Below, in pieces: positions 2,216-5,340 of a stretch of 64,000 nt of DNA. Where the stretch lies: positions 1,364,001 through 1,428,000 of the forward strand of contig NZ_CP053381.1 in NCBI RefSeq assembly GCF_017868775.1. The letters run 5' to 3'. The DNA comes from Billgrantia sulfidoxydans (GTDB lineage Bacteria; Pseudomonadota; Gammaproteobacteria; Pseudomonadales; Halomonadaceae). Within the stretch, counting starts at the first letter, position 1. Every line of letters starts with the position of its first letter. The notes beneath the pieces were generated by a model. It did not search any database. It was not told the origin of the DNA and worked only from the letters and a program-made list of their open reading frames with translations. Position numbers and translations under genes: made by a program.

Positions 2216-2441
2216 CGATGGCCTCCAGAAGTCCTGCCGTTGGATCCGGCTCATCTCGCCATTCGCCTCGCAAGTACCGATACGTCGCCGGACGCCGCAT
2301 GACGCGCAGCGTGACGAGAGGCAGGGAGCGGGAATGAGATGGCCGATCATTGTACGTAAGAAGCAGCGGCGAGCCTAGAGCCGATCCAGGTACGGGCCCC
2401 GCCGCACCGTGTCCGGCGGCAGAGGCCCTTGTCTCGAATGG

Positions 2442-2615
2442 CTAGTGCTTCAGGATCACGTAGAACGCGTGGAGGATGCCCGGGATGAAACCCAGGAAGG
2501 TCAGCAGGATGTTCAGCCAGAAGTGGCCCTTCAGGCCGACCTCCAGAAACACGCCGACCGGCGGCAGCAGGAGGGCGAAGATCATCTTGATGGGGTCTGT
2601 TGCGGTAAGTGCCAT
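2442..2615 (-). CDS. Pmp3/YqaE (UPF0057) family small membrane protein
   Basis: A 57-residue hydrophobic peptide that I translated by hand because it is shorter than the usual ORF cutoff. It contains two transmembrane segments and the Pmp3 family pattern LLPPVGVFLEVG followed by FWLNILLTFLGFIPGILHAFYVIL. Pmp3/YqaE proteins are stress-linked inner-membrane proteolipids, in yeast tied to cation homeostasis and membrane potential; the bacterial role is not settled. GGAG (as ACGGAGCTGAT) lies upstream of the ATG. It lies between dusA and the small-RNA array, transcribed away from the array. Confidence 0.92.
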   Translation of the reverse strand: MALTATDPIKMIFALLLPPVGVFLEVGLKGHFWLNILLTFLGFIPGILHAFYVILKH

Positions 2616-2750
2616 ATCAGCTCCGTTGAACGTGGCGTGCCTGTTCCTACCTCCAGCCTAGCGTATTCTCAGGCGCTGTCTGCGTGCGTTGACCTTCGAC
2701 GCGGGGCCATCGGCAAGGCATCGGGGCGCATATCCTCGTTTCAAGCGCTG

Positions 2751-2768
2751 TGTAAGAGATATCCTACA
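2751..2768 (+). promoter_or_regulatory. GacA-type upstream activating sequence
   Basis: TGTAAGAGATATCCTACA matches the GacA box consensus TGTAAG-N6-CTTACA at 11 of 12 fixed positions. It is about 70-90 bp before the first GGA-rich RNA, the distance at which GacA boxes precede rsmX/Y/Z genes in Pseudomonas. No gacA/gacS gene is in the window. Confidence 0.75.
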
Positions 2769-2837
2769 AACACGAAGCCAATTTCGTACGCCCTTCGATA
2801 TCCTGGGTTAAACCACTTTTCTCCGAAAGCAACTATC

Positions 2838-2985
2838 GTGGGAACAACGGGCGAGGGAGAGCCCTACAGGGAAGGCCGAGCGACGGAGCGCTCAGTACCA
2901 AGGACGCTTGGGCAGGAAGCCCGAGGTTGGTCGATAGGGAAGCGTTGATTGAAAGCCCGGCCCCAGCGGTCGGGCTTTTTTTCGC
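2838..2985 (+). ncRNA. CsrB/RsmZ-like sRNA, unit 1
   Basis: Predicted regulatory RNA that sequesters the translational regulator CsrA/RsmA. Seven GGA motifs lie between 2841 and 2940. Three sit in the loops of short hairpins: GGGC/GCCC around GAGGGAGA (2850-2864), GAGCG/CGCTC around ACGGAG (2878-2893), and CTTGGGC/GCCCGAG around AGGAA (2907-2925). An intrinsic terminator follows at once. The GacA-like box at 2751-2768 lies upstream. The 5' end is approximate; it could be anywhere from about 2830 to 2846. No convincing ORF covers it; the reading frames across it have no family similarity or ribosome binding site. Confidence 0.82.
2952..2982 (+). terminator. Intrinsic terminator of sRNA unit 1
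   Basis: AAGCCCG...CGGGCTT stem-loop followed by a run of seven T. Confidence 0.9.
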
Positions 2986-3209
2986 TGTGCAGGCCGCCCT
3001 GGCGAGTGGCGCTGCACGCTTTGCCCTTGCGAGAGACGCCATGGTTTCGCGTTCCTCAGGTTCGCCAAAATATCGCGTCTCGTCGCGCCTGCCCTGGCTA
3101 CCGGCCGGGGCCTTTTCTTGCGCATCGACGAGGCTCTCTTCAGCGGACTCTTGTGCATTGGCTTATCCCAGGTTAAGGAACCTTTCCGCAATGAGCTGTC
3201 AGAGTAACT

Positions 3210-3346
3210 GCATCGGGACAGGGAAAGCCCGTCATGGAAGGCTGAGTCAGGGACGGCTCACGTACCAAGGAGGCTCGAGCAGGAAGCTTGAGGAAGAAGT
3301 AGGGAAACGAAGATATAGCCCGGCCGCCAGGCCGGGCTCTTTTTTA
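3210..3346 (+). ncRNA. CsrB/RsmZ-like sRNA, unit 2
   Basis: Second GGA-rich unit, with eight GGA motifs between 3216 and 3305. It is clearly homologous to unit 1: both share TACCAAGGA and a GCAGGAAGC hairpin. The stem of that hairpin is CTTGGGC/GCCCGAG in unit 1 and CTCGAGC/GCTTGAG here, so bases changed on both sides while pairing was kept, which is evidence for selection on RNA structure. A second hairpin GAGTC/GGCTC shows AGGGAC in its loop. It ends in a strong terminator. Only a degenerate GacA-like box (near 3152-3169) is visible upstream. The 5' end is approximate. Confidence 0.8.
3317..3345 (+). terminator. Intrinsic terminator of sRNA unit 2
   Basis: Nine-base-pair stem AGCCCGGCC/GGCCGGGCT with a GCCA loop and a following T run. 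Confidence 0.92.
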
Positions 3347-3455
3347 GGTCCATGGGGAGACTATCTGACGGCCGGGCTCATCTTTTCGCTCTGTTACACA
3401 AGGGAACGTTTCTTTTCCTTAATAGCCTTGAGTTGGGGTAAAGGCAAACTATTCT

Positions 3456-3640
3456 GAGGATGCAAACGAGGCATGGAAGCCTTTCAAGGCAGACAGCCTT
3501 GCGGGTCAGGAAGCCTGCGGATGGAACAGGGAAGGCCGAGTGAGGACAGGATGCCATGATGGCCAGGGAGTTCCAGAAGCGGTTATCCGCATGGTGCAGC
3601 TCATCAGCCCCCTCACTAAGTGAGGGGGCTGCTATTATTT
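3456..3640 (+). ncRNA. CsrB/RsmZ-like sRNA, unit 3
   Basis: Third GGA-rich unit, with nine GGA motifs from 3458 to 3569. Hairpins that expose the motif include AGGC/GCCT around ATGGAA (3470-3482) and GCGGG/CCTGC around TCAGGAAG. A sigma-70-like promoter is visible just upstream: TTGAGT at 3428-3433, 16 bp, TATTCT at 3450-3455. That would start the RNA near 3461 and leave the first GGA outside it. A poor GacA-box relative (TGTTAC at 3392) is upstream. The unit ends in an 11-bp stem whose downstream tract is only moderately T-rich. Confidence 0.72.
3606..3640 (+). terminator. Probable terminator of sRNA unit 3
   Basis: Stem AGCCCCCTCAC/GTGAGGGGGCT with a TAA loop, followed by GCTATTATTT. The stem is very strong, the T tract imperfect. 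Confidence 0.75.
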
Positions 3641-3801
3641 GGCTATTATTTTTAATAGGAAATTGAATTATATCGCTTTTTTCGATTTCTGGCGATGGCT
3701 GATGACACACTTGCTCCCCTTGGTCAACCCTCTGGTAGGTGTCAAAGGTGGGGGGCTTGGTCGGCTGGGTGGGAGATAAATAGTCACTGTATTACATCCC
3801 C

Positions 3802-3819
3802 TGTCGGCAATGGCTTACA
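3802..3819 (+). promoter_or_regulatory. GacA-type upstream activating sequence
   Basis: TGTCGGCAATGGCTTACA keeps TGT and the complete CTTACA half-site with a 6-bp spacer. It lies 67 bp before the first GGA motif of sRNA unit 4, a position like that of the box before unit 1. Confidence 0.65.
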
Positions 3820-3867
3820 GAACAAAGGGACGAAATCAGCATTATTTCCTCGGCCGATCTGGCAAGC

Positions 3868-3999
3868 TGTGTCTGGTCGAGCCAGGGAGGCTCTCCAGGG
3901 AAGAAGCGCCAGGATGGTGTGTACAGGGAGTTGGGTAAGGATGCCGTTGTGGTGTGGAAGGAATCGACACAAGCCCGGCTGTATGGCTGGGCTTTCCTT
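3868..3999 (+). ncRNA. CsrB/RsmZ-like sRNA, unit 4
   Basis: Fourth GGA-rich unit, with seven GGA motifs between 3886 and 3962. The hairpin GAGCC-AGGGA-GGCTC (3879-3893) is a perfect presentation of the CsrA/RsmA target in a loop; CAGGGAA, CCAGGATGG and ACAGGGAG follow. The unit is preceded by a good GacA-like box at 3802-3819. It ends in a stem-loop AAGCCC/GGGCTT with a weak T tract, so readthrough toward unit 5 is possible. The 5' end is approximate. Confidence 0.75.
3971..3999 (+). terminator. Probable terminator of sRNA unit 4
   Basis: AAGCCCGGC...GCTGGGCTT stem with G-T pairs, followed by TCCTTG. Weaker than those of units 1, 2 and 5. Confidence 0.6.
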
Positions 4000-4131
4000 G
4001 TGCTTCACTCAGCAGGCAACGCTTGCCTGAAGGGGGCACACCGGTGGATTGTCATAAGCTTTCGATACGTCACTGGCGATGAAGTATGGTCATTAGCCAG
4101 CGCCAAATTTCGTCGTTATTCTGTTAGGTAT

Positions 4132-4277
4132 CTCGCAAGGAGGCGGGGAAACAGGGAAGACAGAGCAGTGGAGGCTCATTGATTGCCAAGATTACAAGGA
4201 TGCATGACAGGATCGTCATGGTGAGCTGGAAAGGAACCAAGAATTGAAGCCCGGCCTTGTGCCGGGCTTCCTTTTTC
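4132..4277 (+). ncRNA. CsrB/RsmZ-like sRNA, unit 5
   Basis: Fifth GGA-rich unit, with eight GGA motifs between 4139 and 4235. Hairpins include ATGAC-AGGATC-GTCAT (4205-4220) and GAGC-AGTGGAG-GCTC (4163-4177), each with GGA in the loop. A distant relative of the GacA box (TGTCATAAGCTTTCGATA, 4050-4067) lies 72 bp before the first GGA. It ends in a strong intrinsic terminator. No ribosome binding site plus ORF of plausible composition is present on either strand. Confidence 0.75.
4246..4277 (+). terminator. Intrinsic terminator of sRNA unit 5
   Basis: Ten-base-pair stem GAAGCCCGGC/GCCGGGCTTC, then CTTTTT. Confidence 0.92.
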
Positions 4278-4737
4278 CCTCGCCTTTTTCATCAAGCCTG
4301 CCCTACTCGCGCTGTGCTATGGTCTAAGCTGCGCTACGGTGTGCGCTACGGTGAGTGCCCCTGCCGCAATAAGACGAGAAGTGTTTCAGTAACGAAACGA
4401 AAAATCCTGCATTAAAAATTAACCCAAGTTAATTCATTCGCTTCCTGACGGTGGCACTGTAGGTTCCGCCATTGGGACTGGTGTATGGACTGTCATCGCA
4501 TGAGCCACGAGGCTGTCAGCCAGGGAGCGGTGCCGTCCAGCGGCTCGCAACTCATGCCTCCCACGAAGCCTATCCAAGCATTGATCGGCCTTCCCCTCGG
4601 CAGGGAGGGCGTGCTCCGAAGCGTGTGCCGCAAGCCTGGCCAGTCCCTCTGTCATCGAATGAGAACCTTGCACGGAAGGAGTTTCAATCAGGCTGAACGA
4701 CAGCCTCTCTCGGGACTACTGACGCAGGAGAAGAAGA
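4278..4737. other. Intergenic stretch without a recognised gene
   Basis: A 460-bp gap between the last sRNA terminator and the next CDS. It has a short direct repeat TGCGCTACGGTG near 4330-4355 and an AT-rich patch around 4390-4435 that could hold a promoter. Small ORFs on both strands (4434-4696) show no family resemblance and I do not call them. CAGGGAG occurs twice near 4522 and 4601, but without a hairpin-terminator architecture, so I do not extend the sRNA array into it. Confidence 0.5.
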
Positions 4738-5340
4738 ATGATCGAGCTAATGTGGAAGGCAGGATCAAAGTTTCTTGACGACATGGGTCCTGGTGTCGCT
4801 ATCGCACTGTTCGCCATCTTCATGTCTTGGGTGCTGTCCTGGCCTCATGGGCAAGGGCTCGCCATGGACACTGCCGACGTGGAGCCAGAGGCCATGAGGT
4901 ACGAGTCGGCCCATACCACCGACTCCCGCGGCGCGGCTGAGCTGATGCACCTCGAAGGTGATGACTTGGCTCGCTATCCCAGCACCTTGGACATGCAAAG
5001 ATATTATTGCTTGCTGATAGAGCGTTTGAGTTCAGGGCAGCGAGAGCAAACTGCCCCAGTATCCGTGTCGCGCTATGCGACCTTGTGCGACATCTTCACC
5101 GATGCGGCGAGGAGGGTCGACGTCTATGCCGATCGTCTCGACGGCCAGGGAGGATTCCATCCTGAGCCACATGGGTTCATGTTGCACAGGCAAGGAACGG
5201 TGCAGGCAGTCGGCCCCTTCCATGCGCAAGGTGAGTGCAGCGAGATAGCCGCGAGACTGGCCCTGATCGGTGAACAACCTTCACGCTGCAAGCCTTATGC
5301 CGAGATTCGGCAGGCCTCGCTGCTACGTGAACGGGGCTGA
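4738..5340 (+). CDS. Hypothetical membrane-anchored protein
   Basis: A 200-residue product that I do not recognise. One hydrophobic segment at about residues 16-36 (GPGVAIALFAIFMSWVLSW) suggests an N-terminal anchor, with the remaining polar part probably facing the periplasm. Four cysteines (in YYCLL, TLCDIF, GECSE and SRCKP) lie in the soluble part and could form disulfides if it is periplasmic. The start at 4738 is preceded by GGAG. It is flanked by the sRNA array upstream and a terminator downstream, so it appears to be a single-gene unit. Codon use resembles neighbouring genes, which supports a real gene. Confidence 0.7.
   Translation: MIELMWKAGSKFLDDMGPGVAIALFAIFMSWVLSWPHGQGLAMDTADVEPEAMRYESAHTTDSRGAAELMHLEGDDLARYPSTLDMQRYYCLLIERLSSGQREQTAPVSVSRYATLCDIFTDAARRVDVYADRLDGQGGFHPEPHGFMLHRQGTVQAVGPFHAQGECSEIAARLALIGEQPSRCKPYAEIRQASLLRERG

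Follow-up and report, generated by a model that had tools for sequence, protein, structure and literature searches.

Positions 2838-4277 of the window, as we term the whole analysed stretch of 64 kb (bases 1364001-1428000 of a 4.49 Mb genome, one contig), hold five non-coding units that lie on the same strand and each end in a hairpin. These units very probably represent five paralogous, separately transcribed decoy RNA genes of the Csr/Rsm type, whose inputs would be partly different. A tandem decoy array, as proposed in the first-pass annotation, is supported as the best reading of their anatomy, their conservation and the GacA-type boxes, together with the finding that the genome encodes csrA and gacA. 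Each predicted RNA, about 135-185 nt in length, would display 7-9 GGA motifs, most of which are unpaired or lie in the loops of hairpins, and these motifs would bind CsrA dimers and thereby release the target mRNAs of CsrA. The csrB RNAs of Vibrio are longer than these units. The array provides candidates for the CsrA-antagonist RNAs that are so far missing in relatives of Halomonas and constitutes a natural system in which to ask why decoy RNAs multiply.

Organization of the array

According to Pfam assignments, the gene order of the slot is aspA - dusC - (pmp3) - array - hypothetical ORF - dksA/traR-like gene - ORF - HTH gene - gltX, which agrees with the earlier placement of the array between pmp3 and a hypothetical ORF and assigns it to a dusC-gltX slot. 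Among the named loci, the GltX of the window is closest to that of Billgrantia lactosivorans, with 95% identity, which makes a salt-loving Billgrantia (formerly Halomonas) the most likely host.

The units were scored with a covariance model, R1, which was built from unit-1 and unit-2 types and trained entirely on sequences from the own genus or from a named Billgrantia. Candidate unit 1 (2838..2985, forward strand, as all features described here) contains 7 GGA, is represented in alignment A1 and scores 129.3 bits as a member of the training set; its terminator hairpin has a stem at 2959-2976 followed by a T-run. Candidate unit 2 (3204..3346), with 8 GGA and a terminator at 3317-3338, scores 140 bits and likewise belongs to the training set. 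Candidate unit 3 (3456..3640) features 9 GGA, 8 of them mostly unpaired, and a terminator at 3605-3631; it is the most divergent of the five, and its copies in relatives were found by blastn. As R1 barely recognises this unit (10.3 bits), its kinship with the other units lacks sequence support. R1 also matches two types outside its training set, namely candidate unit 4 (3867..4001; 7 GGA, 41.6 bits, alignment A3, also returned by the scanner described below), which ends in a terminator-like hairpin at about 3971-3992 with a weak T-run, and candidate unit 5 (4124..4277; 8 GGA, 51.8 bits, alignment A4) with a terminator at 4246-4270. The boundaries given by R1 (2838-2984, 3204-3346, 3867-4001 and 4124-4276) lie within a few bases of those drawn at first pass, and the GGA counts reported then (7, 8, 9, 7 and 8, 39 in total) proved exact. 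Pairwise identity among the five units amounts to 0.44-0.72.

A coding reading of the interval was rejected, because indels between relatives break the frame and the stems covary. On the 3' side of unit 5, no sixth unit was found in the window, the best full-model score being 3.0 bits (4643-4689); in three relatives, a weak candidate sixth unit lies just after unit 5 (L125:6254-6366, 37.8 bits; L121:7494-7616, 27.4 bits; L122:8789-8911, 24.1 bits). Downstream of the array, a 200-aa ORF (4738-5340) belongs to no Pfam family and found no match in a protein search against plasmids; it is present in several relatives of the Billgrantia group with 31-68% identity.

Folding and termination

The earlier statement that every unit ends in a terminator-like hairpin stands for units 1, 2, 3 and 5, each of which holds one site in a terminator scan that returned eight sites in 2400-4800 versus 2.7 expected from shuffles, including an additional site (3091-3111) that lies in the spacer separating units 1 and 2. 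The hairpin of unit 4 was accepted by our own scanner only, and since its T-run is weak, read-through after this unit is possible.

The earlier statement that many GGA motifs reside in hairpin loops is likewise borne out. In the folding ensemble, 31 of the 39 motifs are more unpaired than paired, and the summed accessibility of GGA exceeds that of dinucleotide shuffles for units 2-5 (P = 0.005, 0 of 200, 0.010 and 0.005, respectively), while unit 1 is borderline (P = 0.075). The mere number of motifs, on the other hand, is not above chance (P = 0.35, 0.08, 0.12, 0.055 and 0.135 for units 1-5) and was discarded as proof, the shuffles equalling the observed counts in 5.5-35% of cases. Units 2-4 have low fold energies (z -2.9, -3.6 and -2.4), that of unit 1 is weakly low (z -1.8), and that of unit 5 is not low (z -0.8). 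A simple scanner demanding a terminator, at least 6 GGA in 145 nt, accessibility and few TCC, with thresholds picked in knowledge of the units, returned the five unit positions and nothing else in the 64 kb of the window, with zero on the other strand and zero in the reversed window.

Conservation at the RNA level

Conservation between species is the decisive test of the array, and it was passed. Alignment A1 comprises 38 of the 54 sequences of unit-1 and unit-2 type that were found; the remaining 16, mostly close relatives of kept rows and including one truncated row, were dropped by eye. The 18 GGA columns of A1, which make up six GGA blocks, show 97.1% identity versus 72.7% in the 98 other columns outside the terminator. 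Moreover, 10 of 20 base pairs changed on both sides, and pairing is kept in 98.7% of cells; neither value was reached by any of 500 shuffles, a control that is inflated by relatedness and by the derivation of the structure from the same alignment. When the partners are slid by one column or more, pairing drops to 52% or less, and in the central AGGA hairpin all seven pairs exhibit changes on both sides. For units 3, 4 and 5, represented by 10, 8 and 11 sequences, the GGA motifs stay in loops and compensatory pairs are few (3, 2 and 4). Compensatory stems together with a terminator, as expected of non-coding RNAs, were accordingly found, on fewer sequences for units 3-5 and with a weak T-run in unit 4.

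Between the window and the relative G008, the units are 69-93% identical, while the flank before the box of unit 1, the spacer between units 3 and 4 and the sequence after unit 5 reach 53%, 41% and 45%, respectively. This simple picture is weakened by the spacer between units 1 and 2, which at 74% is as conserved as units 2 and 4, and by the 109 bases upstream of unit 3, which are only 50% identical.

Order and copy number in relatives

Blastn with the window interval yielded matches in 26 of 90 genomes of the genus, the own one included, with at most four candidates scored per genome and with four of the positives (G034, G039, G063 and G085) resting on matches of 25-40 bases. Among the fetched relatives of the Billgrantia (formerly Halomonas) clade, the order of the units is kept between dusC and gltX, unit 3 being traced by blastn. 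Five units in the order 1-5 occur in G008, and five in the order 2', 2, 3, 4, 5 in G074 and G043, whereas G009 and G068 contain six (1, 2', 2, 3, 4, 5) and G084 four (1, 3, 4, 5). In addition, six units were found in G072, five in G057 (L070) and three near dusC in G001 and G025. Farther afield, three of four Chromohalobacter loci bear a single unit, placed between dusC, which was detected there, and the HTH gene, and Modicisalibacter xianhensis carries four units upstream of gltX in a locus in which dusC was not detected. A guanidine-II riboswitch match (L155:2078-2128) was noted in the locus of a G043 decoy unit.

The simple scanner, which was run on all 80 gltX neighbourhoods (R1 on 52 of them), was positive in 12, namely seven of the Billgrantia group (L040, L044, L045, L047, L049, L056 and L070, six of them named Billgrantia or Halomonas sp.), four of Chromohalobacter and one of Modicisalibacter; it misses units found by blastn or R1, for instance in L048, L056 and L085. 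A tree of 52 units places each of the classes 1, 4 and 5 on one side of a branch with good support (98/93, 100/99 and 100/100), while class 2 is weakly supported (78/77); 22 rows outside the classes are uncounted, and class 1 also takes in two dispersed copies. Judging from the kept order and the tree classes, the array positions look orthologous rather than recently copied.

Upstream control elements

In gamma-proteobacteria, a GacA/UvrY box upstream of decoy genes is usual, if not universal. Sites were scored on 12 positions of what we take to be the GacA box consensus, after removal of three rows whose upstream sequence was too short. A palindromic sequence upstream of rsmX, rsmY and rsmZ is mentioned in PMC2375449, and PMC6262261 presents a VarA site similar to the consensus used here. 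By pattern search, GacA-type palindromic boxes were found upstream of unit 1 (2751..2768, TGTAAGAGATATCCTACA) and upstream of unit 4 (3802..3819, TGTCGGCAATGGCTTACA), while units 2, 3 and 5 are devoid of a good one.

Across genomes, boxes with at least 10 of 12 matches are located at -87/-88 from the unit start in 14 of 20 unit-1 type genes with enough upstream sequence, and all eight unit-4 genes feature a box of 9 or 10 matches at -60. Genes of unit-2 type possess a box of at least 9 matches near -65 or -90 in 19 of 31 cases; for array unit 2 proper, no in-register site of at least 9 was found in six genomes (the own one, G008, G009, G043, G068 and G074), and its box is degenerate to varying degrees, with 8 of 12 positions retained in G009, G068 and G074 and a best box of 7 of 12, out of register, in the window. 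None of ten unit-3 genes reached 9 of 12, and the single such site among 12 genes of unit-5 type lies out of register at -114. Since single boxes are not rare by chance, with the best site in random 140-base stretches of the same loci equalling the counted boxes in 0-17% of draws, the argument rests on the fixed spacing. Genome-wide, a strict form of the box occurs at eight places and its reversed pattern at none; four of the eight precede a decoy directly, namely unit 1, unit 4 and the dispersed units at 123367 and 1511147 described below, while no good box precedes the one at 121508, likewise dispersed.

For unit 3, the upstream alignment disclosed by eye a sigma-70-like promoter (TTGAGT, 16 nt, TATTCT; 3428..3455), the -10 region of which is common to seven of ten unit-3 rows; a promoter scan of 2400-4800 reported a site on the reverse strand only and not this promoter. 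Unit 5 is preceded by a conserved upstream block of its own. Given site and spacing, units 1 and 4 would be switched on by phosphorylated GacA via the palindromic box, while units 2, 3 and 5 may have lost a good box or never had one. Other promoters probably drive these three, in which case several inputs would sum into one pool of free CsrA.

CsrA, GacS/GacA and the genome-wide inventory

The genome encodes one csrA. Of the 90 genomes examined in the genus, 87 yielded exactly one csrA match; the three without any are assemblies of 72-87% completeness. A gacA gene is present (287.6 bits versus a cut-off of 280), and the best GacS/BarA-like kinase scores 617 bits, which is below the cut-off of its model (890). 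The genome contains CsrA along with a GacS/GacA pair, with the reservation that the GacS-like kinase falls below the curated cut-off.

At E below 1e-6, R1 recovers seven units in the own genome, namely 1, 2, 4 and 5 of the array and dispersed ones at 121508, 123367 and 1511147, while unit 3 was not found in this search. At E 0.001, matches occur in at least 141 of 275 Halomonadaceae genomes and 11 of 24 genera, including at least 24 of 90 own-genus genomes; two more (G010 and G036) among the 26 R1-positive genomes of the genus have single weak matches that are lost at this threshold. The matches in the ten other genera are independent, given the origin of the training set described above. Most other genomes hold 1-3 matches, and the lineages g14, g12 and g21 reach at least 11, 9 and 9, respectively, all survey copy numbers being lower bounds and a missing match no proof of absence. 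In the own genus, at least 12 matches were reached at E 0.01 when more candidates were scored per genome (35 versus 11, the latter being the ceiling that g14 attains), both surveys applying stricter filters than the blastn one. The family also spreads by dispersal, since copies sit on separate contigs in G040 (eight matches on eight contigs) and G042 (seven on five; loci L176 and L175). A match to a group II intron was noted in L176 as well.

A ninth candidate decoy, of a different type, is located in the own genome (C1, about 591804-591993; L230:5805-5994), with 190 nt and 11 GGA, between eno- and fdxA-mutS-like genes (named by eye) about 11 kb before csrA. Pseudomonas rsmZ also adjoins fdxA. 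An RNA of this kind, with 177-190 nt and 10-13 GGA, occurs in nine hand-picked genomes, the own included (four with arrays and five with box loci flagged by the scanner), five of which lack R1 matches; in the four examined genomes with arrays it has an imperfect GacA-like box, and no Rfam Csr/Rsm family matched it at E up to 1. This RNA may be an older, general decoy of the genus. Altogether, a single CsrA would face the five array genes and four candidate decoys elsewhere, i.e., nine candidates.

Relation to known decoy RNAs

None of the Rfam families CsrB, CsrC, PrrB_RsmZ, RsmY and rsmX, which the first-pass annotation had named for such a search, reached its gathering threshold in the window, and the Csr/Rsm families were likewise not found in 20 further R1-matched loci (two of the own genome, 18 of relatives). 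At E up to 10, the listed sub-threshold matches, from which CsrC is absent and two lower-scoring overlapping clan matches are omitted, are RsmY (23.7 bits), PrrB_RsmZ (23.3), rsmX (16.7) and CsrB (11.9). Units 2 and 5 resemble PrrB_RsmZ (RF00166) and RsmY (RF00195), which they match weakly, in length, GGA hairpins and terminator, but with 23.3 bits for unit 2 and 23.7 for unit 5 they stay far from the gathering values of 44 and 57. By anatomy the array units look like Csr/Rsm decoys, and by Rfam's own threshold they stand outside those families.

The earlier view that Csr/Rsm genes are normally single and dispersed was too strong. Tandem rsmX-1/rsmX-2 pairs are described for several Pseudomonas, with tandem rsmX also listed for F113, P. 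stutzeri and, as rsmX-3/rsmX-4, for P. syringae (PMC7911923). Like the window units, these are short decoys with several GGA and an origin by tandem duplication; however, they are two neighbours instead of five (relatives have as many as six, with weak candidates besides), they are 75-87% alike and, in P. brassicacearum, exclusively GacA-dependent according to that source, whereas the window units are 44-72% alike with differing upstream regions and score far below the rsmX threshold. In the same way, csrB3 adjoins csrB2 in Aliivibrio salmonicida (once printed Aeromonas), and Vibrio csrB1 is independent of VarS/VarA, which is read there as integration of different signals (PMC6262261). The Vibrio csrB1-4 set thus shares with the array several paralogous decoys of which one escapes the two-component system, but its members form separate synteny groups save for the A. 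salmonicida pair, and the available text of that paper describes no tandem battery. Azotobacter vinelandii resembles the present genome in harbouring many Rsm sRNAs, RsmZ1-7 plus RsmY, which are differentially expressed; in contrast to units 2, 3 and 5 with no good GacA box, they are described as GacA-activated (PMC8988225). Among the literature matches listed, from a search with most subscription journals outside its coverage, no array of more than two tandem decoys and no publication on a Billgrantia sRNA was found, and for Halomonas anticariensis the sRNA is listed as 'Unknown' in the table of a review from 2020 (PMC7366521). Hence, decoys themselves are known elsewhere, while a conserved row of five or six looks unusual. 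An idea cited in PMC7911923, that decoy number follows the number of CsrA proteins, does not fit one csrA versus nine candidate decoys.

Dosage or summation of signals

Why five genes are kept side by side can be read in more than one way. One reading, held at slightly less than even confidence, is a conserved signal-summing battery of five to six diverged decoys, whose separate promoters (GacA-driven, sigma-70-like and of other kinds) would be the reason for their retention and which would all act on one CsrA pool, as part of a Halomonadaceae family outside Rfam with about ten copies in some lineages and a single csrA. If so, the level of free CsrA would report the sum of several environmental inputs. 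Dosage alone, in which five redundant copies would lift the upper limit of CsrA titration and drift would account for the differing promoters, is a serious though rather doubtful contender. It accords with the varying copy number of the slot (one unit in Chromohalobacter, between three and six in the Billgrantia clade), with genomes such as G040 that carry many copies on separate contigs, and with the uneven degeneration of the unit 2 box; yet the units differ strongly (0.44-0.72 identity) and their classes nevertheless keep order and own upstream features between species, which is beyond the need of simple dosage. The dosage arrangement suggested at first pass is thus not the only reading, as upstream regions differ and only units 1 and 4 keep a good box. 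Both accounts are testable at this one locus owing to the adjacent promoters.

The remaining explanations are much less probable. A single transcript from the unit 1 promoter that is cut or partly terminated into units would suit the common strand, the short gaps, the weak T-run after unit 4 and the location of unit 2, which has no good box, directly after unit 1; it is nonetheless improbable in view of the terminator-like hairpin after each unit, the conserved promoter-like blocks before units and the recurrence of a GacA box before unit 4. Still less credit is due to GGA-rich structured RNAs with another job, e.g., base-pairing sRNAs of the Hfq type or binders of another protein: many sRNAs share such terminators, but six GGA blocks that are most conserved while stems change compensatorily, and GacA boxes in register before many of these genes, are typical of Csr/Rsm decoys. 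A compositional artefact or functionless extragenic repeat, which the GGA counts within dinucleotide shuffles might suggest, is hardly conceivable against covariation, GGA conservation, kept order and promoter elements between species.

GacA boxes without decoys

Four strict boxes of the genome have no decoy behind them (C1:2526303, 2560710, 2713706 and 702494; loci L189, L190, L191 and L185). By eye, the genes following them are a lapG-lapD-like pair in one case, GGDEF-type proteins in two and a small protein in one, and GacA may, through these boxes, act directly on genes of c-di-GMP turnover and biofilm formation.
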